A stretch of 64,000 nt of DNA from Mesorhizobium sp. AR02. Lineage in GTDB: Bacteria > Pseudomonadota > Alphaproteobacteria > Rhizobiales > Rhizobiaceae. The notes under the pieces are model-generated. The model made no database searches and was not told the origin of the DNA. It saw only the letters and a list, made by a program, of their open reading frames with translations. Numbering within the stretch: the first letter of the stretch is position 1; every line of letters begins with the position of its first letter. The position numbers were made by a program, and so were the translations under genes. The DNA lies in NCBI RefSeq assembly GCF_024746835.1, contig NZ_CP080531.1, forward strand, positions 7,088,001-7,152,000, written 5' to 3'. Below are positions 44 to 29,174 of this stretch, piece by piece.

Positions 44-1051
44 ATGGCGACCAAGAACATCGACCATGCCTTCACCGCCCGCTCCAAAACGGGCGGCGCC
101 CTTGAGCCGACCTATTCCGGCGCGCTGTCGTTCATGCGGCGCAAATACACCAAGGACGTGAAGGGCGCGGACGCGGTGGTGTGGGGCATTCCGTTCGACG
201 CCGCCGTCACCAACCGGCCAGGCGCCCGTTTCGGGCCGCAGGCGATCCGCCACGCCTCGGCGATCCTCGACAATGACCCGCAGTACCCGTTCTCGCGCGA
301 TCTGTTCGAGCATCTCGCGGTGGTCGACTATGGCGACTGCCTGCTGGATTCCGGCAACCATCAGAAGACGCCCGGCACGATCGAGCGCGAAGCGGCCAAG
401 ATCCTGAAATCAGGCGCTTTCCTTTTGACGCTCGGCGGCGACCATTTCGTCACCTGGCCGCTGCTCAAGGCGCATGCCGCCATCCACGGACCGCTCGCTC
501 TGGTGCAGTTCGACGCGCATCAGGACACGTGGGAGGATGACGGCAAGCGCATCGACCACGGATCCTTCGTCGGCCGCGCGGTCAAGGAAGGCATCATCGA
601 CCCCGATCGGTCGATCCAGATCGGCATCCGCACCCACGCGCCCGACACGTTCGGCATCAAGATCCTCTACGGCCACGAAATCGAGGAGATGCGTGCGTCC
701 GACATCGCCTACGCCATCGTCGACCGCACCGGCGGCAAGAAGACGTACCTCACCTTCGACATCGATTGCCTCGACCCGGCCTATGCGCCCGGAACCGGCA
801 CGCCGGTGGCCGGCGGACCGTCTTCGGCGAAGATCCTGTCGACGCTGCGGCAGCTCAACCAGATCGATATTGTCGGCGCCGATGTCGTGGAGGTTGCGCC
901 GGCCTATGATCACGCCGATATAACGGCGATCGCCGGCTCGATGGTGGCCATGCAGTATCTCGGCCTGCTGGCGGAGCGGAAGGCACGGCAGGAAGAGATG
1001 AACAACGGCAATCACAACGGTGCCGCCGTGAATCATGGTAACGGCATATAG
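44..1051 (+). CDS. speB: Agmatinase (ureohydrolase family)
   Basis: Cytoplasmic hydrolase expected to convert agmatine to putrescine and urea. The 335-aa protein has the complete binuclear-manganese signature of the arginase/agmatinase family: GGDH at residues 131-134, DAHQD at 157-161 and FDIDCLDP around 238-245, with Asp239 and Asp241 as metal ligands. Length fits a slightly extended rhizobial agmatinase; the last 25 residues (Asn/His/Gly-rich) lie beyond the catalytic fold. The ATG is preceded by a GAGGA ribosome-binding site. The gene ends 30 bp before argC in the same direction, so the two may share a transcript. Related enzymes (guanidinobutyrase, proclavaminate amidinohydrolase) cannot be excluded from motifs alone. 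Confidence 0.88.
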   Translation: MATKNIDHAFTARSKTGGALEPTYSGALSFMRRKYTKDVKGADAVVWGIPFDAAVTNRPGARFGPQAIRHASAILDNDPQYPFSRDLFEHLAVVDYGDCLLDSGNHQKTPGTIEREAAKILKSGAFLLTLGGDHFVTWPLLKAHAAIHGPLALVQFDAHQDTWEDDGKRIDHGSFVGRAVKEGIIDPDRSIQIGIRTHAPDTFGIKILYGHEIEEMRASDIAYAIVDRTGGKKTYLTFDIDCLDPAYAPGTGTPVAGGPSSAKILSTLRQLNQIDIVGADVVEVAPAYDHADITAIAGSMVAMQYLGLLAERKARQEEMNNGNHNGAAVNHGNGI

Positions 1052-1081
1052 TCTTGAGATATCAGGGAATTTGATCAGGCA

Positions 1082-2008
1082 ATGAAACCGAAAATCTTCA
1101 TCGACGGCGAGCACGGCACCACCGGCCTGCAGATCCGGGCGCTGCTTGCCGAGCGTGGCGACCTGGAGATCATTTCCATTCCCGCCGAGCGCCGCAAGGA
1201 GACGGCGGCGCGCGCCGAATTCCTCAATGCCGCCGATATCGCGATCCTGTGTCTGCCGGACGATGCGGCGAAGGAGAGCGTCTCGCTGATCGCCAACGAC
1301 ACCACCAAGGTCATCGATGCGTCGACCGCGCATCGCGTCGCCGAAGGCTGGGCCTATGGCTTCGCCGAAATGGACAAGGATCAGGCCAAGACCATCGCCT
1401 CGGCCAAGCGTATCGCCAATCCCGGCTGCTGGCCGCAAGGACCGATCGCGACGCTGCGGCCGCTGGTCACCGCCGGGCTGCTGCCGGCCGATTTTCCGAT
1501 CACCGTCAACGGCATTTCGGGCTATTCGGGCGGCGGCCGCCCGATGATCGAGGATTACGTCGCCAAGGGCGAGGACGCCTCGGAGTTCCTGCCCTATGGT
1601 CTCACCCTGCAGCACAAGCACGTGCCGGAACTGCGGGCCTATGCGAAGCTGTCGCATGATCCGATCATGCAGCCGGCGGTCGGCAATTTCGCCCAGGGCA
1701 TGATCACCGTGGTGCCGCTGCAGCTCGGCGGCCTCGACCATGTGCCGACGGGTGCGGAGCTTCATGCGGCCATTGCCGACCATTTTGCCGCCATCAAGGG
1801 CGGCGTGGTCGAGGTGGCACCCTATGCGCATCTGGAGCGCATGCCGGAGATCGATCCCGAGATCTACAACGGCACCAACCGCATGAAGGTCTATGTCTTT
1901 GCTAACGACAAACGCGCGCAGGCGCTGCTGCTGGCGGTCTACGACAATCTCGGCAAGGGTGCCTCGGGTGCTGCCGTCCAGAACATGGACCTGATGCTCG
2001 GGCTTTGA
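1082..2008 (+). CDS. argC: N-acetyl-gamma-glutamyl-phosphate reductase, short type
   Basis: Third enzyme of arginine biosynthesis: NADPH-dependent reduction of N-acetylglutamyl phosphate to the semialdehyde. The 308-aa length matches the short (type 2) ArgC common in alphaproteobacteria. The nucleotide-binding start DGEHGTTG is at residues 8-15 and the catalytic cysteine sits in NPGCWP (Cys116). The YSGGGRP stretch near residue 145 is typical of the family. The stop codon overlaps by one base the ATG of the following kinase gene (TGATG), which suggests translational coupling. It follows agmatinase, so arginine-related genes are grouped here. Confidence 0.93.
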   Translation: MKPKIFIDGEHGTTGLQIRALLAERGDLEIISIPAERRKETAARAEFLNAADIAILCLPDDAAKESVSLIANDTTKVIDASTAHRVAEGWAYGFAEMDKDQAKTIASAKRIANPGCWPQGPIATLRPLVTAGLLPADFPITVNGISGYSGGGRPMIEDYVAKGEDASEFLPYGLTLQHKHVPELRAYAKLSHDPIMQPAVGNFAQGMITVVPLQLGGLDHVPTGAELHAAIADHFAAIKGGVVEVAPYAHLERMPEIDPEIYNGTNRMKVYVFANDKRAQALLLAVYDNLGKGASGAAVQNMDLMLGL

Positions 2009-2847
2009 TGGACGCACCAGCCTTCCCGGCGCGCTGGAAAATCAGCGCGCCCGAACTCATTGCCGAAACCTTTTCAAGCCGCATATGGAAAGTGCGACGC
2101 CAAGACGGCTCACCGGCCGTCGTCAAGGCGCTCAAGCCTTTCGACGATGTTGCCGACGAATTGCGTGGCGAACATCTTCTCGCCTGGCGGCGCGGCGAAG
2201 GCGCGGTGCGGCTGCTTGGCCGCGACGGCCACAGCATGCTGCTCGAATATGCCGGCGACACCCTGCTTACGCGGGTTCTCGATGAACAGGGCGACAACGC
2301 TGCGACCGCGATCGCGGCCGAGGTGATGGCAAGGCTGCTCTCGCCTGGGAAAGACCCCTACCCGCCCGAGCTTCAGCCACTCAGGGAGCGTTTTTCGAGC
2401 CTGTTCAAGAAGGCGAAAACCGACCGCGACGACAGCGACGACAGCCTCTATGTCGAGGCCGCCACCATCGCCGAACGGTTGCTGGAAAATCCGCACGATA
2501 TCAGGCCGCTGCATGGCGATCTCCATCACGACAACATCCTGCACGGGCCGCGCGGCTGGCTGGTGATCGACCCGAAGGGCGTGCTCGGCGATCCCGGCTT
2601 CGATGCCGCCAATATGTTCTACAACCCGCTTGATCGGGATGCGCTTTGCCTCGATCCCCTGCGGATCGCGCACATGGCCGAAGTCTTTGCCAGCACACTG
2701 GGGCAATCACCGGCAGCGATACTGGACCACGCCATCGCCTATGGCTGCCTGTCCGCGGCCTGGCACCACGAGGACGACAATGCAGTCGAGGAGAACCGCG
2801 AATTGTCGATCGCCGAGGCGATCCGGGCGGTGCGGGCAGGTTTTTGA
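2008..2847 (+). CDS. Aminoglycoside phosphotransferase-like kinase, APH(6)/hydroxyurea type
   Basis: A 279-aa small-molecule kinase of the APH fold. The catalytic loop HGDLHHDN (residues 159-166) and the metal-binding IDPKG motif (Asp178) are intact, and the following GDPGFDAANMFYNP matches the streptomycin 6-phosphotransferase/hydroxyurea-phosphotransferase subgroup. Members of this subgroup are common in chromosomes and most have no known substrate, so resistance should not be assumed. I chose ATG 2008, which overlaps the argC stop as TGATG; a TTG one codon earlier is also open. The coupling to argC hints at a housekeeping metabolic role, but this is inference. Confidence 0.8.
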   Translation: MDAPAFPARWKISAPELIAETFSSRIWKVRRQDGSPAVVKALKPFDDVADELRGEHLLAWRRGEGAVRLLGRDGHSMLLEYAGDTLLTRVLDEQGDNAATAIAAEVMARLLSPGKDPYPPELQPLRERFSSLFKKAKTDRDDSDDSLYVEAATIAERLLENPHDIRPLHGDLHHDNILHGPRGWLVIDPKGVLGDPGFDAANMFYNPLDRDALCLDPLRIAHMAEVFASTLGQSPAAILDHAIAYGCLSAAWHHEDDNAVEENRELSIAEAIRAVRAGF

Positions 2848-2925
2848 TCAAGCGAGGGCATTGGTAAACACTTATTTACCATGTTGGACTACTGAGATGT
2901 CCTGGCTCCCACCCAAGGATTCCTC

Positions 2926-3249
2926 ATGGTTAGCGCGATCTCGGGTTCTTCCTCCGCAACCCAGTATTCCTCGTCCAGTTCCTCGAGCAATGCAGCCCAG
3001 GAGGCCGCGCTCGAAAAGCAGATCCAGGACCTGGAAGACCAGGCCAAGGCGATCACCGATGAGGTCAAGGCCGCCCAGGTGCGGCAGGATATCGCCGTTG
3101 CCCAGGCCAAGCTTGACGCGCTCAGAGCCGCCGACGCCGACAAGGCAGCGAAAGCCGCTCAGAGCCAGTCAACACCATCCGCCGCCGCTGTGCGCCAGGC
3201 GGAATTCGACGGCGAGAAAACCACGCAGTCCAACGAATTCTGGATGTGA
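2926..3249 (+). CDS. Small coiled-coil protein, FlxA-like
   Basis: A 107-aa hydrophilic protein with no signal peptide. Residues 1-22 are almost all Ser/Ala/Gln; residues 23-75 form a strongly predicted coiled coil with repeated Ala/Lys/Gln/Asp heptads, and the tail is Ser/Gln-rich, ending in FWM. It resembles FlxA-like proteins, but the composition is so biased that the family link is weak. No function can be assigned. A stem-loop at 3275-3291 follows it and could end its transcript. It stands alone between the kinase and an insertion sequence. Confidence 0.6.
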   Translation: MVSAISGSSSATQYSSSSSSSNAAQEAALEKQIQDLEDQAKAITDEVKAAQVRQDIAVAQAKLDALRAADADKAAKAAQSQSTPSAAAVRQAEFDGEKTTQSNEFWM

Positions 3250-3274
3250 CGGGCCGATAGGCTCGATCAGTTCA

Positions 3275-3291
3275 CCGTTTCACGGAAACGG
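3275..3291 (+). terminator. Stem-loop after the coiled-coil gene
   Basis: CCGTTTC (3275-3281) and GAAACGG (3285-3291) form a 7-bp perfect stem with a 3-nt ACG loop, 25 bp past the stop codon. A loose T-rich stretch (TGTTCTTTT, 3298-3306) follows. It could be a weak intrinsic terminator. Confidence 0.45.
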
Positions 3292-3300
3292 CGGACTGTT

Positions 3301-3316
3301 CTTTTCCTGGAATTGC
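3301..3316. repeat. Partial copy of a dispersed palindromic repeat
   Basis: In reverse complement this reads GCAATTCCAGGAAAAG, identical over 16 bases to 57633-57648 and nearly identical to 10282-10301. The insertion sequence at 3322-4823 starts just beside it, in the CTAG that follows. Confidence 0.6.
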
Positions 3317-3321
3317 TCTAG

Positions 3322-4823
3322 CAGGCTGTTGAAGAAGTGCTGGCGCGGTTGTTTGGAGCGTGATTCACTTCTCCCCGGATGATTTGGGGATTTGTGGATG
3401 CGCGGCTCGGACGAACGGACAGGCTCTCTGTTTTCGTATGTCGATCTTGAGGCGCGGGTTCGACGTGATCATCCGCTGCGGGTGATACGGGAGATCGTTA
3501 ACGCGGCTCTTGTCGCGATGGATGGCGATTTTGCGGTGCTTTATCCGCCCGGGCTCGGCCGTCCGTCGATCGCACCGGAACGTTTGCTGCGTGCGATGCT
3601 GCTGCAGGCCTTCTACGGCATTCGCTCGGAGCGCCAGTTGATGGAGCGGATGGAGTTCGATCTCCTGTTTCGCTGGTTCGTGGGGCTTGGTGTTGACGAT
3701 CCGGCCTGGGATCATTCGAGCTTCACCAAGAACCGGGATCGGCTGTTGGAAGGTGAGATCGCGGCAAAGTTTCTGCGCGCTGTGCTGGCGCAGCCAAAGG
3801 TGAAGCGGCTTTTGTCGTCGGATCACTTCTCGGTGGACGGGACGCTGATCGAGGCCTGGGCTTCGATCAAGAGCTTCCGCCGCAAAGACGGAGACGACAA
3901 CGGTCCGGATGGAGCAGGTCGCAATGCCGAGCGTGGCTTTCATAAGGAGAAGCGCTCCAACGACACACACCAGAGCACGAGCGACCCGCAGGCGCGGCTC
4001 TACAAGAAGGGCGACGGGCAGCCGGCGAAGCTCTGCTACATGGGGCATGCGCTGATGGAGAACCGCCATGGGCTGGCGGTCGATGGCGGCATCACCCAGG
4101 CCACGGGCACGAGCGAGCGTGATGCCGCGCTCGCCATGTTGGACCGCAGACCGTCGCGGCGGCGCATCACACTGGGTGCCGACAAGGCCTATGACGTGCG
4201 CGCTTTCATCAGGGATCTGCGCGAGCGCAAGATCACGCCGCACATCGCCATCGACGGCCATCTGAGCAAAACCGGCAAGCCTCGCGTGACGGCGATCGAT
4301 GGTCGCACGCGCTCCCATGCCGGCTATGCGGTCAGCCAGCGCTGCCGCAAGCGGATCGAAGAAGTGTTTGGCTGGATCAAGGCCTCGGCCGGCATGGCCA
4401 AGGTCAAGCTGCGAGGATGCGCCCGTGTGGGCGCGGCCTTCACCTTGAACCTGGCGGCCTACAATCTGGTCCGCTTGCCCAAGCTGCTGGCAGCGCCGGT
4501 ATGAGCCTCACCGGCCGCTGGCGGATTGTCGCGATGCCCGACTATGTCGAGGACTATCGCGACATGATGGAGCCCGCCTACATTGAGTTCGCGGCCGATG
4601 GCTCCGGGGAATTCGCCTTCGGCTGCGTCACCGGGCAGATCATCGGCGCGGGCGACGGCAACGATGTCGCCTTCTCCTGGCAAGGCAATGACGAAATGGA
4701 CGAAGCCCAGGGCAATGGCTGGGCTGAAATCCAACCAGACGGCTCCATCAACGGACAAATCTGCTTCCATGGCGGCGACGAAGCTGACTTCGTCGCTCGC
4801 AAGTGCACTTCTTCAACAGCCTG
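3322..4823 (+). mobile_element. Complete IS (IS5/IS1182-like) with a passenger gene
   Basis: A 1.50-kb insertion sequence. Terminal inverted repeats of 19 bp are perfect: CAGGCTGTTGAAGAAGTGC at 3322-3340 and its reverse complement at 4805-4823. CTAG flanks both ends (3318-3321 and 4824-4827) and is most simply a 4-bp target duplication; because CTAG is itself palindromic, the repeats could also be read as 23 bp. The element holds an intact transposase and a second gene that reads out through the right inverted repeat. It lies 3 bp from the ctaA stop codon and beside a dispersed repeat. Family placement (DUF772 plus DDE_Tnp_1) rests on the transposase sequence. Confidence 0.9.
3392..4504 (+). 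CDS. DDE transposase (DUF772 / DDE_Tnp_1 type)
   Basis: A 370-aa transposase, apparently full length. The N-terminal DUF772-like region (residues about 15-110) contains LRAMLLQAFYGIRSERQLMER and FRWFVGLG. The RNase-H-like catalytic part follows with D in FSVDGTLIEAW, D in GADKAYD and E in RCRKRIEEVFGWIK. A basic insertion rich in Lys/Asp/Gly (residues about 160-200) separates the first two catalytic blocks, usual for this group. No frameshift or internal stop is visible, so the element may still be mobile. The stop overlaps the next ORF as ATGA. Confidence 0.92.
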   Translation: MWMRGSDERTGSLFSYVDLEARVRRDHPLRVIREIVNAALVAMDGDFAVLYPPGLGRPSIAPERLLRAMLLQAFYGIRSERQLMERMEFDLLFRWFVGLGVDDPAWDHSSFTKNRDRLLEGEIAAKFLRAVLAQPKVKRLLSSDHFSVDGTLIEAWASIKSFRRKDGDDNGPDGAGRNAERGFHKEKRSNDTHQSTSDPQARLYKKGDGQPAKLCYMGHALMENRHGLAVDGGITQATGTSERDAALAMLDRRPSRRRITLGADKAYDVRAFIRDLRERKITPHIAIDGHLSKTGKPRVTAIDGRTRSHAGYAVSQRCRKRIEEVFGWIKASAGMAKVKLRGCARVGAAFTLNLAAYNLVRLPKLLAAPV

Positions 4824-24335: not shown

Positions 24336-24412
<77 letters not shown>

Positions 24413-24634: not shown

Positions 24635-25975
24635 ATGCTCAGAAGACTTCATTTCGAAAACTTCAAATCATGGCGTGAAGCGACTGTCGATTTCGCTCCG
24701 ATTACCGCCTTCTTCGGCGCGAACTCGTCTGGCAAAAGCAGTATCATCCAGTTCCTGTTGATGCTGAAGCAAACGAAGGACTCGCCCGACCGGAACCTGG
24801 CTCTCGATTTTGGTGGTGACGACTCCCTGGTCGACTTGGGATCTTTCCCAGCCGCGGTCTACCGACACGATCTGGAATCGCGAATCCGTTGGAAACTTGA
24901 TTGGTCGGCCAAGGACGAGATCAAGATTTCAGACCCGTCGGGAAAGCGAATTGACGTTCTTTTGCGAGGCAATGACCTCTCCATTTCATCGGAGGTTGGT
25001 CTTCGCAATCAAGCCGTTGTCGCAGAAGATCTGTCATACGATTTCTCGGGAGCGCACTTCGAACTCAAACGAGATCCTAACAGATCCGAGTTTCATCTGA
25101 GTGCATCAGGCGCCGACTTCCGCTTCATACGCGTTCCCGGCCGAGTGTGGACGTTGCCGGCCCCCACCAAGTCTCATGCATTTCCCGATCAGGCTCGAAC
25201 CTATTATCAAAACTCGCAGTTCCTGAGTGAGTTCGAAACTGCGTATGTCCAGCAGATGGACGAAATCGTCCATCTGGGACCTCTGCGTGACTTCCCGAAG
25301 CGACAATACATTTGGGCCGGTTCCACGCCGGTCGATGTCGGACGCCGGGGCGAGCGGACAATCGACGCGATTCTGGCGGCCACAGCACACAACGAGGAGC
25401 GCAACGTCAAACCCAAGTCGCGCCTACGACCGTTTCAGGAGATGGTCGCTTGGTGGCTCAAAGAAATGGGCCTCATTGAGAGCTTCGAGGTAAAGGAAGT
25501 TGCGGCAGGATCAGGCCTATATCGCGCCTTCGTCCGACGCGACTCGAAATCTGCCGAGACGCTGATAACAGACGTCGGCTTCGGCATCTCGCAAATATTG
25601 CCCGCTCTCGTCTTGCTCTACTACGCTCCCAAAGGATCCACAGTGATTCTTGAGCAGCCGGAAATTCATCTCCATCCGGCCGTTCAATCCGCTTTTGCAG
25701 ACGTGATCATCACGGCGAGCAAAGTTCGTGGCATACAAATTATTATCGAGAGTCATAGCGAACATATTCTCCAACGGATTCTGCGCAGAATTGCCGAAGG
25801 TGCCAAATCAAATTACCCCGAATTGACGCCCCGAGACGTCAAGATGTACTTCACACAATCAAAGAATGGCGCGTCGTCGTTGGAACCACTTGAGGTTAAC
25901 CTCTTTGGCTCCATCGAAAATTGGGCAATTATCGGCTTGACGTACCAAGGAATTAAGTCCTATGATTCGTGGTGA
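24635..25975 (+). CDS. AAA_15/DUF3696-type ATPase, 3' end replaced by IS insertion
   Basis: An ABC/OLD-type ATPase of 446 codons as it stands. Walker A GANSSGKSS is at residues 28-36, signature-like DVGFGISQILP near 335, Walker B VILEQPEIHLHP near 355 and the ESHSEH switch near 380. I start at ATG 24635, preceded by GGGGGA. Residues 1-430 are native; codon 430 is at the junction and the last 16 residues (AIIGLTYQGIKSYDSW) come from the left inverted repeat of the element. The original end, beginning PPDFFGD, is at 28581-28665, and joining the two after removing one target copy gives 457 residues. The lost piece resembles the DUF3696 tail. Originally it formed an operon with the PIN-like gene. 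Confidence 0.85.
   Translation: MLRRLHFENFKSWREATVDFAPITAFFGANSSGKSSIIQFLLMLKQTKDSPDRNLALDFGGDDSLVDLGSFPAAVYRHDLESRIRWKLDWSAKDEIKISDPSGKRIDVLLRGNDLSISSEVGLRNQAVVAEDLSYDFSGAHFELKRDPNRSEFHLSASGADFRFIRVPGRVWTLPAPTKSHAFPDQARTYYQNSQFLSEFETAYVQQMDEIVHLGPLRDFPKRQYIWAGSTPVDVGRRGERTIDAILAATAHNEERNVKPKSRLRPFQEMVAWWLKEMGLIESFEVKEVAAGSGLYRAFVRRDSKSAETLITDVGFGISQILPALVLLYYAPKGSTVILEQPEIHLHPAVQSAFADVIITASKVRGIQIIIESHSEHILQRILRRIAEGAKSNYPELTPRDVKMYFTQSKNGASSLEPLEVNLFGSIENWAIIGLTYQGIKSYDSW
25916..25923. repeat. Target-site duplication, left copy
   Basis: GAAAATTG at 25916-25923, repeated exactly at 28573-28580 on the other side of the element. Eight bp is the expected duplication for IS1595-family transposition. 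Confidence 0.93.
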
Positions 25976-26150
25976 CAGGCCGGCACTAGGTGAGCGTTTG
26001 ATTGATGTCACACCTGAAATGATTGATGCGGGATTGGACGAGTTCCGCCAGCATCAATATGACGGTGATGTGCGGCACATGTTAGAGTCGATCTACCGCG
26101 CGATGGCTTATGCAAGCTTCTCGGCTTCGGCCACCAGCCCTTCTAGATAA
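25962..26150 (+). CDS. Small passenger protein, unknown function
   Basis: A 62-aa ORF starting 39 bp inside the left end, with AAGGAA upstream of its ATG. It overlaps the 14-nt tail of the truncated ATPase frame. The centre, LIDVTPEMIDAGLDEFRQH...MLESIYRAMAYAS, resembles many small rhizobial and phage-like hypothetical proteins with a VTPEMI...VYRAM pattern. Its last 43 bp overlap, tail to tail, the gene on the opposite strand. No function can be given. Confidence 0.55.
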   Translation: MIRGDRPALGERLIDVTPEMIDAGLDEFRQHQYDGDVRHMLESIYRAMAYASFSASATSPSR

Positions 26151-26755
26151 GTGACGTTTAGTTCGGCTACGGCGACCGGGGACGTTGATTGGAGTGGAAC
26201 ACCAAGATGGTGGGTCGGGGGATTGTATGTTCGGTCGCCCCTTGCACTTATGGGAACCAGAACTGTGGTCGATGGTGTACGCCGAACTTTAACGGGTTTC
26301 CCATCAAGAGATGTCACTCGCAAGTCGGCAGGTGGCGGGCCTCCCACAAACCCGATCGCTGTTGCGAAATTAGTCATGACAACATCGCGAAACGGTCCGC
26401 CGTCAAGGCGGATGGAATTGCTGTCGCCCTCGCCGGAAATACCGATGTCGTGTCGTTCAGGTTCGAGATGCACGGCAGAGCCGAGCCCGTGTTCATCGTC
26501 GTTTCTAGCTTCAAACATATATTGAAGCAGGGGGTCGCTTTTGCGGACTTGTTTCTTGGATCCAAGCCATTGCATCGACTGTGGCGATCCCTTTGCCCCT
26601 TGCTCCAGAACGGTATAAACGTTCTTGGAGGATGTCAGGACCACATACCAACTATCAGAGAAGTCATCAAAAGTGCGACTGGACCGCAATGCGGCCAGCG
26701 CCTTTTGCGCAACGCGAAGTCGCCCCTTAGCTTTTTCTACAGCGGACTGGTTCAT
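26108..26755 (-). CDS. Passenger protein with HEPN-like RNDDEH motif
   Basis: A 215-aa protein. Start ATG 26755 has AGGAG 8 nt upstream; longer versions would run through that site. The N-terminal half is helical (KGRLRVAQKALAALRSS, SWYVVLTSSKNVYTVLEQG) and ends in LLQYMFEARNDDEHGL, with Arg84 and His89 spaced as in the RX4H motif of HEPN ribonucleases. The C-terminal half is beta-rich and ends in a short helix (YLEGLVAEAEKLA). An HEPN-type nuclease or toxin is possible but rests on one motif and predicted helices. Its start codon overlaps that of a divergent small ORF (CATG). Confidence 0.72.
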   Translation of the reverse strand: MNQSAVEKAKGRLRVAQKALAALRSSRTFDDFSDSWYVVLTSSKNVYTVLEQGAKGSPQSMQWLGSKKQVRKSDPLLQYMFEARNDDEHGLGSAVHLEPERHDIGISGEGDSNSIRLDGGPFRDVVMTNFATAIGFVGGPPPADLRVTSLDGKPVKVRRTPSTTVLVPISARGDRTYNPPTHHLGVPLQSTSPVAVAELNVTYLEGLVAEAEKLA

Positions 26756-26918
26756 GACAGAATCTCCTAAAGACAAAGACCAGGATAAGGCCGACGAGCG
26801 CCGCGACGAGTTGGCGAAGCGCGTCTTGAATACGCCGCCACAGCCCAAGCACGGCAAGCCAAACGAAAAGAAATCAGCGAACGGAAAGCGCGATGAGCCT
26901 CATTCAAAGAGAGATTGA
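26754..26918 (+). CDS. Very small charged passenger protein
   Basis: A 54-aa ORF, nearly all charged and Pro residues (MTESPKDKDQDKADERRDELAKRVLNTPPQPKHGKP...). The VLNTPPQPKH stretch is seen in many tiny hypothetical proteins of rhizobia and their mobile DNA. It starts inside the CATG shared with the gene on the other strand and has no good ribosome-binding site, so the start is uncertain. It overlaps the next ORF by 26 bp. Confidence 0.45.
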   Translation: MTESPKDKDQDKADERRDELAKRVLNTPPQPKHGKPNEKKSANGKRDEPHSKRD

Positions 26919-27123
26919 CCGGATTCGCGCTGCAATTGCCGTAGGTGGCGATCGTGCCGGTGAACTCTATGCCGCCCAGCAAGCCCTTGAGTGGGCACTG
27001 GAGCCGGGCGGCATAAAGTCGCCTTACGCCATGATCACTGGCACTCAGGAAGGCTCAGCAGGTTATCCCGCACCGTCGAATCCCGCGTGGTGCGGATGTG
27101 CTTCCGGTGCCCAGCGGGGCTGA
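26893..27123 (+). CDS. Small passenger protein, unknown function
   Basis: A 76-aa ORF (MSLIQREIDRIRAAIAVGGDRAGELYAAQQALEWAL...) with a helical first half and a Gly/Pro/Ser-rich second half. Upstream AAAGCG is only a fair ribosome-binding site. It overlaps the preceding small ORF and, tail to tail, the DUF3892 gene by 88 bp; the final residues may be unconstrained readthrough. The first 55 residues look protein-like. Function unknown. Confidence 0.45.
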   Translation: MSLIQREIDRIRAAIAVGGDRAGELYAAQQALEWALEPGGIKSPYAMITGTQEGSAGYPAPSNPAWCGCASGAQRG

Positions 27124-27322
27124 CAACGATTACGTTGGCTTCTATGGTCCCGACCCTAACGTAAAAATCTTCGTGGTCTGGGCCGCTGCTTTCGATCCGA
27201 GCGATAACCACCTCGACGGGCAGTTTCCACGGGATTCCAGCATCGCCAACGTGGGTTATGTGCTCGACGGAACTGTCGCGATTAGGCTTGTTGATGCACT
27301 TGATTTGAAAACGTCCTGCCAT
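27035..27322 (-). CDS. DUF3892 protein
   Basis: A 95-aa protein closely fitting DUF3892: it begins RFQIKCINKPNRDSSVEHITHVGDAG, has the FYVRVGTIEANVIVVSP centre and ends with the family's NLLSLPECQ. DUF3892 proteins are small, of unknown role, and often found near mobile or conflict-related genes. It lies between the small ORFs and the transposase, in the transposase direction. Its 5' side contains a 14-bp inverted repeat (27346-27359 / 27406-27419) and a strong hairpin (27431-27461). Confidence 0.8.
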   Translation of the reverse strand: MAGRFQIKCINKPNRDSSVEHITHVGDAGIPWKLPVEVVIARIESSGPDHEDFYVRVGTIEANVIVVSPAGHRKHIRTTRDSTVRDNLLSLPECQ

Positions 27323-27345
27323 GTTAGAAAAAGTCCTTGTGTGGG

Positions 27346-27419
27346 GCCACAGGACGGCTTGACGGAATCACCGGTAGGTTTAGTTTGGCGATTGAACATG
27401 TGCCTAGCCGTCCTGTGGC
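27346..27419. repeat. 14-bp inverted repeat upstream of the DUF3892 gene
   Basis: GCCACAGGACGGCT (27346-27359) is the exact reverse complement of 27406-27419, with 46 bp between. It could fold as a long stem in RNA, be a regulatory site, or be the ends of a tiny nested element. No coding function is evident. Confidence 0.6.
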
Positions 27420-27430
27420 TGGGTTGCATC

Positions 27431-27461
27431 AAACGGCGGTGACTACGAATCACCGCCGTTT
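27431..27461 (-). terminator. Strong hairpin between transposase and DUF3892 genes
   Basis: AAACGGCGGTGA (27431-27442) and TCACCGCCGTTT (27450-27461) form a perfect 12-bp stem with a 7-nt loop. Read on the minus strand it would end transcription arriving from the transposase gene (stop at 27570) before the DUF3892 gene. Confidence 0.6.
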
Positions 27462-27569
27462 CCAACTTTAAGGCCAAATCAACCGTGGAGTCCCCCGTTT
27501 CAGGGTTTCCCACACGGTTTTTTGTTCCCTTTTCGTTTCCTTAAACGGAGAAGCTTTCGCGCCTTCTGC

Positions 27570-28505
27570 TTAGGCGTGACTGGCTTCGTCAACCCGCCGA
27601 TAGGTCAGACGTTTGCCGACCATGCCCTTGATGGCACGTTCGCAGCGCTCGGTGTCGGTGACGCCAAGGCCGACGCGGTTGTTGTAACGGAAATCGAACT
27701 CGGCAAGGTAGCGGTGCAGATGAGCTTCGCTCACCTGATGATACACGCCATTGATGCCGCGCTTAAGGATCGAAAAGAAGTTCTCGGCGGTATTGATGTG
27801 CATGAAACTGCCAAGGCGGACATACTCATTTGCCGAATGGTTCACGGTGCCATGGCTGGCGTATTCCTTGCCGATCTTCGGATAGACGGTGCTCTCGTCA
27901 GTCATAAATGCACTGGCGCGGTCGGCGGTGGTCACGATGATCGGGCGCACCGTTTCGGCGGTCACATTGGCAATATGGAATGAGGCAACGCGCCCGTCAC
28001 GCTCGACCAGCGAAAGGACGGGTTTCTTTGGAGCGGGCTTGCGGTGGGCGCGGTTCTTTGCCTTGCCGCCGACATAGGCTTCGTCAACCTCGACAACCTT
28101 GTTCTTGCCGCCAAGCGGACCGGACGACTTAGGATCGTCGCGCATGGCTTCACGAAGGCGATGGCAGAGGAACCAAGCGCTTTCGTAGGTGATGCCAAGC
28201 ATGCGGTGCATCTGGTGAGCGGACATGCCTTTCTTCGATGCGGTCAACAGGTGCATCGCGGCAAGCCAGACGTTGATCTTGATGTGGCTGCGCTCCATCA
28301 GGGTGCCAACCGTCACGGAGAATGGCTTGCGGCATTCCTTGCACTTGTAGACGCCCGGACGAGTGGACTTGCCCTGAAGCTTGGTAATGCGGTCCGGATT
28401 GGCATTGCCACAATGCGGGCAGTTCGGACCATGGGGCCAATGAAGGCTCTCAAGGTGTTCGCGGGCCTTGTTCTCGTCAGTGTAGATCGGGTCGGTGAGT
28501 TTCAT
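27570..28505 (-). CDS. IS1595-family transposase
   Basis: A 311-aa transposase, complete. An N-terminal zinc ribbon (C29, C32, C55, C58: CPHC...CKEC) is followed by a helix-turn-helix region (SAHQMHRMLGITYESAWFLCHRLREAM) and the catalytic domain with EVDEAYVGG, ADRASAFMTDES and NTAENFFSILKR, the D-D-N/E pattern of the ISXO2-like group. The start ATG at 28505 is only 2 nt from a 9-bp hairpin that contains its AGAGG ribosome-binding site, so translation is probably held low. No defects seen, so it could still be active. Confidence 0.93.
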   Translation of the reverse strand: MKLTDPIYTDENKAREHLESLHWPHGPNCPHCGNANPDRITKLQGKSTRPGVYKCKECRKPFSVTVGTLMERSHIKINVWLAAMHLLTASKKGMSAHQMHRMLGITYESAWFLCHRLREAMRDDPKSSGPLGGKNKVVEVDEAYVGGKAKNRAHRKPAPKKPVLSLVERDGRVASFHIANVTAETVRPIIVTTADRASAFMTDESTVYPKIGKEYASHGTVNHSANEYVRLGSFMHINTAENFFSILKRGINGVYHQVSEAHLHRYLAEFDFRYNNRVGLGVTDTERCERAIKGMVGKRLTYRRVDEASHA

Positions 28506-28507
28506 GG

Positions 28508-28532
28508 GATTGCCTCTGAATTTGAGGCAATC
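28508..28532 (-). promoter_or_regulatory. Hairpin hiding the transposase ribosome-binding site
   Basis: GATTGCCTC (28508-28516) and GAGGCAATC (28524-28532) pair perfectly, loop 7 nt. On the minus-strand mRNA the AGAGG ribosome-binding site lies in this stem, directly before the ATG. Confidence 0.55.
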
Positions 28533-28548
28533 TTATCAAAGTGAGCCG

Positions 28549-28572
28549 TGGTACGTCAAGCCGATAATTGCC
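28549..28572. repeat. Right terminal inverted repeat of the IS1595 element
   Basis: Exact reverse complement of 25924-25947 over 24 bp. It is followed at 28573-28580 by the second copy of the GAAAATTG target duplication. Confidence 0.95.
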
Positions 28573-28580
28573 GAAAATTG

Positions 28581-28665
28581 GCCGCCCGATTTCTTCGGTG
28601 ACCAATTCGGCGAGATTGCCGCTCGGGATAAGGCGGCAATTCTGAAACGAATGAGCGGATCGTGA
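28581..28665 (+). pseudogene. Detached 3' end of the ATPase gene
   Basis: The 85 nt after the right target duplication continue the ATPase frame: the first base completes the Trp codon, then 27 residues starting PPDFFGDQFGEIAARD and the stop TGA at 28663-28665. No start codon remains in front of it. The WPPDFFGD stretch resembles the C-terminal signature of DUF3696-type ATPases. Its stop overlaps the GTG of the PIN-like gene. Confidence 0.88.
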
Positions 28666-29174
28666 TAGTTGTCGACGAGAACGTGCCGATCGTCGCCAAT
28701 GAGGCGACGAAATCGGCAACTCAACGACTTGCGCCGCAAGCAGACGATGCCTGCATCCTCGCTTCGATCAATCGGTTGGAGGAGATCGTGAAAGGCGAGA
28801 TCGTGCTGCTGGACGAGGCAGGCGCTGTGATGTCGGCTTATCGAGCCAAACTCAGCGGGAGTGGCATGCCTGGCACCGGAGATGCGTTCTTGCGGCATCT
28901 GTCAGATCGCCAATACGATCCATCCAAAGTTCGCATCGTGCCGCTGGAGGAAAACGCTGCGCGGGTCTACACCGCTTTTCCTGCCGACGAGGCACTAAAG
29001 AAATTTGATAAGGCCGATCGAAAATTTGTAGCCTTGGCTGCATCGGTTGCCGGCTCTCCAATAGTCAATTCCGTTGACAGCGACTATTCCCATCATAGCC
29101 AGGCTCTCATCAACGCCGGAATTGTCGTCGAGGAATTGTGCCCGCAATGCCTGAAAGCTCCGCCTGCGAATTGA
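28662..29174 (+). CDS. PIN-like protein, former operon partner of the ATPase
   Basis: A 170-aa protein. Its GTG overlaps the ATPase's original stop (GTGA at 28662-28665). Acidic residues fall where PIN-domain nucleases have theirs: Asp5 in MIVVDENVPIVANE, Glu40/Glu41 in INRLEEI, Asp119 in ADRKFVALA and Asp139/Asp141 in NSVDSDY. A GTGDAFLRHL segment and the ELCP end recur in a family of uncharacterised proteins I associate with ATPase neighbours (from memory). It is probably the effector of a two-gene system with the ATPase. With the ATPase gene interrupted 2.65 kb upstream, its expression is now uncertain. Confidence 0.75.
   Translation: MIVVDENVPIVANEATKSATQRLAPQADDACILASINRLEEIVKGEIVLLDEAGAVMSAYRAKLSGSGMPGTGDAFLRHLSDRQYDPSKVRIVPLEENAARVYTAFPADEALKKFDKADRKFVALAASVAGSPIVNSVDSDYSHHSQALINAGIVVEELCPQCLKAPPAN

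Follow-up and report, generated by a model that had tools for sequence, protein, structure and literature searches.

The window analysed here is a stretch of 64,000 nucleotides from Mesorhizobium sp. AR02 (contig NZ_CP080531.1, positions 7,088,001 to 7,152,000), in which an element of 2,649 base pairs (bp) interrupts an accessory ATPase gene. The 24-bp ends of the element, GGCAATTATCGGCTTGACGTACCA, located at 25924-25947 on the forward and at 28549-28572 on the reverse strand, match perfectly after reverse-complementing, and a direct 8-bp duplication, GAAAATTG, is found on both sides (25916-25923 and 28573-28580). An intact open reading frame (ORF) of 311 amino acids (aa) on the minus strand (27570-28505) matches Pfam DDE_Tnp_IS1595 (E 1.5e-35), the IS1595 zinc ribbon at its N-terminus (E 4.7e-13) and NCBIfam transpos_IS1595 (189 bits, against a cut-off of 75). 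An earlier note on this DNA had reported perfect repeats, a target duplication and an intact minus-strand transposase of IS1595 type, and all three were recovered.

The DDE domain with its zinc ribbon, the terminal inverted repeats and the 8-bp duplication are those of the IS1595 family, for which this duplication size and named subgroups including ISNwi and ISNha5 are described (PMC8101967). Members bearing passengers are known as transporter insertion sequences, or tIS (PMC3129680, citing Siguier et al. 2009; PMC5704250). Genes unrelated to transposition lie between the ends in the window, and the feature is a complete IS1595-family transporter insertion sequence (IS). The idea that two insertions form a composite was rejected, as the whole element is accounted for by a single pair of ends and a single duplication. 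As a control for chance, the finder, set to 24-bp ends with up to 6 mismatches plus an exact 8-bp duplication, returned no match on shuffled versions (one per locus) of 11 relative loci with elements.

The element is probably still mobile. The earlier note took the perfect repeats and duplication to suggest a recent event, and the perfect ends do suggest so; no near-identical copy was found among 101 relatives searched, nor a second full-length copy in its own 8.9-Mb genome, to support it further. Among 72,556 plasmid records, none covers 80% of the element.

The left part of the element carries other genes, as the earlier note had stated. From the left end, these are a 62-aa ORF (25962-26150, plus strand), similar to an ORF in one other of 41 elements compared; a 215-aa passenger (26108-26755, minus), HEPN-like by motif only; a small conserved accessory ORF of 54 aa (26754-26918, plus); a 76-aa ORF (26893-27123, plus), with a match in one other of the 41 elements, which by eye is L018; and a 95-aa DUF3892 protein (27035-27322, minus; Pfam E 3.5e-13). 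The small gene and the passenger are divergent, their start codons overlapping in one CATG. A conserved non-coding block (27346-27461, plus) separates the DUF3892 gene from the transposase. The region between the left end and the small gene is called slot B, and that between the small gene and the transposase slot A.

Both ends contain a -35 box, TTGACG, with a -10 box 18 bp further in. The left promoter-like site (25937-25966, plus) has its -10 box, TATGAT, just inside the element and matches 10 of 12 consensus positions, by consensus only; the right one (28530-28559, minus), placed to serve the transposase, has TAAGAT and 9 of 12 matches. In view of these boxes, each end of the element probably drives inward transcription.

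Related elements and their conserved blocks

Relatives were collected by scanning contigs for related transposases, and the best 80 of 211 loci were retained. With up to 7 mismatches allowed in the 24-bp ends, a setting also used for the viral-contig and other-subgroup sets described below, 63 of the 80 loci were delimited by ends and an exact 8-bp duplication; several of the other 17 lie near contig ends. The delimited elements measure 1,875 to 4,627 bp, and a passenger-free member was not found among them, the smallest being that of 1,875 bp. The target duplications are 78% AT, against an average of 39.5% for the loci. A set of 76 elements was then made up of these 63, the window element, L009 and 11 of 20 fetched relatives, and all 76 have at least 900 bp besides the transposase match. 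In a hold-out of viral contigs, 36 loci were reduced to 29 by leaving out 7 with short matches; 14 of the 29 were delimited, and cargo ORFs are present in all 14.

Two further elements reside in the window's own genome. L009 has a length of 2,509 bp and the duplication ATTATATT; within it (951-3459 of its locus), the transposase is frameshifted into two ORFs, while one cargo ORF is open. L249 is 3,537 bp long, with the duplication AAGGAGGA and a transposase 48% identical to that of the window, and carries the small gene together with yet another cargo.

As a control, 20 further IS1595 loci of the genus were processed, of which 10 were delimited. One of these is L249, and the other 9 are members of other subgroups, with transposases that share 26-39% identity with that of the window. 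Three of the 9, of 1,187, 1,191 and 1,391 bp, are too short for passengers, which indicates that the method does detect short elements. Another subgroup of the genus is represented by L240, L241 and L245, of 4.4-4.8 kb, with ends CGGTCTTATGTAGCAAAAGCACCA or close to it and a transposase sharing about 32% identity with that of the window.

The small gene, of about 50 aa, was detected in 69 of the 76 elements by an iterated profile (E <=0.01), while the 547 kb of sequence flanking the 63 loci yielded none. The profile was iterated on elements which are also counted, and the controls are the flanks and genomes of the same genus. Within 41 such genomes, an 18-member profile (E <=1e-4) gave 32 matches: for 24 of them an IS1595 transposase match is found no more than 4 kb away, 3 more adjoin transposase remnants, one is separated from such a match by 5.6 kb, and for the remaining 4 none was seen nearby. 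Transposase positions for this count were entered by hand, second fragments of one copy being omitted. The core of the product reads ARELexDEsxexFDxxLkkIakxPPpK, with DEvLrRlLnTPPkP in the window's branch. Differences per codon position (0.29, 0.25 and 0.50 for positions 1, 2 and 3, over 52 pairs) are as expected of a translated gene. No convincing family was found in Pfam or NCBIfam, Pfam giving just four matches, each for one of 18 members, with E between 0.016 and 0.072. The gene is on the same strand as the transposase in 36 elements and on the opposite one in 33.

Comparison of elements with similar transposases revealed that three blocks are conserved, i.e. the end with the transposase, a core in the small-gene region and the far end, all shared by 6 of the 8 close pairs compared. 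The exceptions are L122/L124, where no far-end match was detected, and L113/L120, which share the first block only; L009 and L113 additionally share slot A. The transposases of L019, from a Rhodobacteraceae metagenome-assembled genome, and L020, from Stappia, are 98.8% identical, and their DNA matches just at 1-1055 and in a stretch which begins within the small gene and runs up to the far end. Sharing of cargo was scored for ORFs of at least 95 aa, similar over 60% of their length. Where the transposases are at least 80% identical, 3 of 21 pairs share a cargo ORF, at just 24-31% cargo identity; the corresponding counts are 0 of 66 pairs at 70-80%, 7 of 380 at 60-70% and 35 of 2,308 at 40-60% transposase identity. 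Slot contents are replaced between elements with similar transposases. The earlier note had proposed to compare the cargo of intact copies, and took as a refuting case that closely related genomes do not have the repeats and passengers together. This condition is not fully applicable here: the same type of ends recurs with a variety of passengers, and since passengers are exchanged, a fixed pairing of the two is not to be expected.

The -35 box is a further recurrent feature, TTGAC being present in 62 of the 76 elements at the transposase-side end and in 35 at the far end. Complete promoter-like pairs number 25 at the transposase end, against 3.6 expected, and 15 at the far end, against 1.9. 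Whole-element scans were not clearly above shuffles, either for promoters (3 against 1.4) or for terminators (3 against 2.9); across elements, support for promoters is limited to the -35 box in the ends.

Cargo content

Pfam matches were sought in 150 cargo ORFs and in a flank control of 134 ORFs (140 drawn from 527, 6 of them omitted). Among the matches listed, the cargo contains DUF3800 in 9 ORFs, PIN (PF01850) in 7, SocA_Panacea in 3 and NYN in 2, along with single matches to HNH, GIY-YIG, Vsr, DNA methylase, GmrSD, IrrE-type, Schlafen AlbA_2 and HEPN families. No family occurs in more than 3 flank ORFs, DUF3800 and PIN being found in at most one each. PADLOC was applied to a subset of 88 cargo ORFs, obtained from 92 chosen by script after removal of 5 overlapping or small-gene ORFs and addition of one, with two start codons shifted inwards; the best 25 of 86 families reported are mostly methylase models, each having a single member, while HEC-09 has 2.

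The HEPN ribonuclease motif is R-x4-6-H with a polar residue after R, and RN-x3-H is a motif of this kind. In a complete count, without the ORF exclusions mentioned above, it was found in 29 of 154 cargo ORFs, spread over 29 elements, and in 6 of 527 flank ORFs (Fisher p 1e-14), while shuffles predict 2.1 and 9.2 occurrences, respectively. Per 10,000 residues, the density is 9.4 in cargo and 0.37 in flanks, a 25-fold difference. The 29 motif-bearing ORFs fall into 19 BLAST clusters of the 150-ORF set. When presence of the motif is mapped on a quick transposase tree, at least 17 changes are needed, 11 of which are forced by well-supported branches; for this mapping, three matches judged to be due to chance (L035, L062, L065) were removed, although they are still counted among the 29.

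The 215-aa passenger of the window contains RNDDEHG at residues 84-90. Its five relatives are 35-72% identical and keep R84, N85, D87 and H89, so that R84, N85 and H89 are invariant in all 6 aligned sequences and the polar residue follows R as in the general motif. One relative (L023) lies inside a delimited element of this lineage, and another (L191) has, by eye, a small-gene-like remnant just upstream; for that in G051 (65%), no element was delimited within the 3.6 kb examined. The neighbours of the 215-aa passenger in the window are the divergent small gene and the 62-aa ORF on the other strand. The passenger may be a HEPN-type ribonuclease.

Some arrangements of cargo were noted by eye. 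A two-gene cargo, in which a protein of 240-300 aa is followed by a PIN-like one in transposase direction, recurs in L044, L050, L054, L056, L059, L074, L203 and L215. The 4.6-kb element L071 (5926-10552) has ORFs resembling a cytosine methylase, an HSP90-type ATPase and a Vsr endonuclease by the small gene, and two viral-contig elements (L198, 4928-9251, and L212, 4924-8568) contain DNA methyltransferase-like ORFs of 498 and 536 aa.

Interpretation and related systems

The reading we favour, to which a probability of about 0.7 is assigned, is that the window contains a complete, probably mobile IS1595 transporter IS, belonging to a lineage built as a chassis of three blocks with two slots, whose toxin- or defence-type cargo is exchanged. 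The chassis would consist of the end with the transposase, the accessory gene of about 50 aa and the far end, the two variable slots lying in between. The transposase would move the whole unit into AT-rich targets, and the slots would be refilled by recombination inside the conserved blocks. The cargo may act as toxin, addiction or anti-phage genes, which would repay or enforce carriage.

A more demanding form of this reading is offered tentatively, and we would not expect it to hold in full. It takes the lineage as obligately cargo-bearing and the small gene as a fixed part of the machine, which would also be an internal anchor, by homology and, in the window's branch, by its start site, for the exchange of nuclease-toxin cassettes in the two slots, the cargo addicting or defending the cell. 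If so, one of the smallest classes of transposon would be a shuttle for toxin and defence genes.

Several observations weigh against the favoured reading. Other subgroups have passengers as well: of their 9 delimited elements, 6 are 2.1-4.8 kb long. For at least 94 of the 150 cargo ORFs, Pfam gives nothing at E 0.01. The RN-x3-H form was picked post hoc, and two looser forms give weaker results (p 0.004 and 3e-7). On the transposase tree the motif shows mild clustering (a count of changes as low was reached in 6 of 500 shuffles), and part of its distribution is thus inherited. The viral-contig hold-out shows a weak excess, the motif occurring in 3 of its 24 cargo ORFs and in 2 of its 116 flank ORFs (p 0.035). 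HEPN-type Pfam matches among 26 motif-bearing cargo proteins are few and weak: 2 to PF05168 (best E 0.0015), 2 to HEPN_Cthe2314, 2 to DUF4145 and 1 to Csm6 HEPN. A sequence search of PDB with motif-bearing cargo other than the window's passenger gave 11 weak matches, one being a HEPN toxin at E 1.1. The 215-aa passenger, whose assignment comes from the motif, has no Pfam match at E <=1 and no PDB match by sequence, and comparison of its profile with that of the other motif-bearing cargo gave no alignment. That the cargo acts as toxins or in defence is inferred.

The most plausible alternative, which we regard as unlikely, is an ordinary transporter IS which picks up genes at random, its heterogeneity being due to drift, with no selection for toxin or defence cargo. 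Its strength is that passenger-bearing IS1595 elements are known from the literature cited above and occur in other subgroups here, and that most cargo ORFs lack a recognised domain. It does not account for the 25-fold enrichment of RN-x3-H over flanks, for the DUF3800 and PIN counts of 9 and 7 in cargo, or for the absence of passenger-free members among the 63 delimited elements.

Slightly less probable still is that the small gene encodes a general antitoxin, or a partner of the cargo, and stands outside the transposition module. Its position sometimes fits this: it overlaps the end of a cargo gene in some elements, as with the 196-aa gene of L249 and, by eye, after a PIN-like gene in L044 and L059. 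It nonetheless persists through the exchange of unrelated cargo families, directly follows the transposase in L040, L057 and L071, and in the window is divergent from the passenger.

The non-coding block of slot A contains a 14-bp perfect inverted repeat (27346-27359 and 27406-27419), a promoter-like site and a terminator-type hairpin (27431-27461), and is also present in L009, L112, L113 and L119. The 170-bp stretches of 4 elements have a mean column identity of 83%, and the fold is stable (z -4.4 on one strand and -5.8 on the other). A c-di-GMP riboswitch found by Rfam (E 0.99) is below the gathering score and was taken as chance; a tRNA-like element at 27346-27419 was discarded, ARAGORN finding just a tRNA-Pro elsewhere in the window (24336-24412). 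For an RNA-guided system there is nothing past the stable hairpin block, which also occurs without a transposase: L119 carries it at 1675-1806, in a genome where no IS1595 transposase was found, and in this respect the block behaves like cargo. That it is a regulatory RNA needed for transposition, as its conservation, its fold and a hairpin pair altered on both sides in L113 (by eye) could suggest, is very improbable, given its presence in few elements, L119 among them, the broken pair of the 14-bp repeat in L009 and the lack of Rfam matches above threshold.

Insertion sequences are usually treated as cargo-free. Transporter ISs are a known kind of element, to which this lineage adds an accessory gene as a fixed part and two slots with exchangeable content. 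With IS1595 transporter ISs it shares the transposase, passenger genes, the 8-bp duplication and AT-rich targets, the last described for tISCpe8 and MTnSag1 (PMC5704250); those two encode just lincosamide resistance and the transposase, while the present lineage also has a conserved small gene, a pair of exchangeable slots and cargo of nuclease type. The nearest functional parallel is with Tn3-family transposons carrying exchanged toxin-antitoxin modules (PMC7157771), where toxin types including PIN and HEPN accompany the transposition module; here, the transposase is unrelated and no recognised antitoxin lies beside the window's passenger. Tn7-like transposons also carry cargo in nearly all cases (96%), enriched in toxin-antitoxin and defence genes (PMC8649781), but the present elements are of 1.9-4.6 kb, with one transposase gene and few small cargo genes. 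Neither the small gene nor this cargo pattern is described among the literature matches listed, a collection without most subscription papers. The lineage is of interest because every delimited member carries cargo, 69 of 76 elements keep the accessory gene and elements with similar transposases swap genes of nuclease type. Should the proposed functions hold, it would provide a compact, testable model for the entry of toxin and defence genes into circulation and, as most cargo ORFs have no Pfam match, a source of unnamed candidates.

The interrupted host locus

The insertion point is within the last ~30 codons of a gene for a HEC-03B-type AAA ATPase. The 5' part of the gene (24635-25923, plus) matches PADLOC HEC-03B over positions 1-427 of the 458 of the profile (E 2.7e-175), and the 3' remainder (28573-28665, plus), of 30 codons and a stop, was recognised by comparison with plasmid homologues, which are annotated as DUF3696. 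It is followed by a HEC-03A-type partner gene of 170 aa (28662-29174, plus; PADLOC HEC-03A, E 1e-28).

The ATPase homologues on Azotobacter and Aeromonas plasmids are uninterrupted, reading ...GEIENWPENFFGD... straight across the target point, where the two pieces in the window read ...GSIE and ENWPPDFFGD.... The clean insertion into an accessory ATPase gene described by the earlier note is borne out by these two homologues. No near relative with an empty site was encountered, because there is no close ATPase homologue among 101 genomes, the window's own included, in which the best other match is of 35% over about 100 residues. On the Azotobacter plasmid, the partner gene of the ATPase is 35% identical to the window's HEC-03A-type gene over 167 positions.

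The locus resembles the HEC-03 candidate defence system of PADLOC-DB in having HEC-03B and HEC-03A together, and differs from it in that HEC-03B is interrupted before its last ~30 residues. The insertion probably disables this candidate defence pair. The tRNA-Pro (ggg) gene at 24336-24412 lies just upstream of the HEC-03-type locus; tRNA genes are a common kind of integration place for islands.

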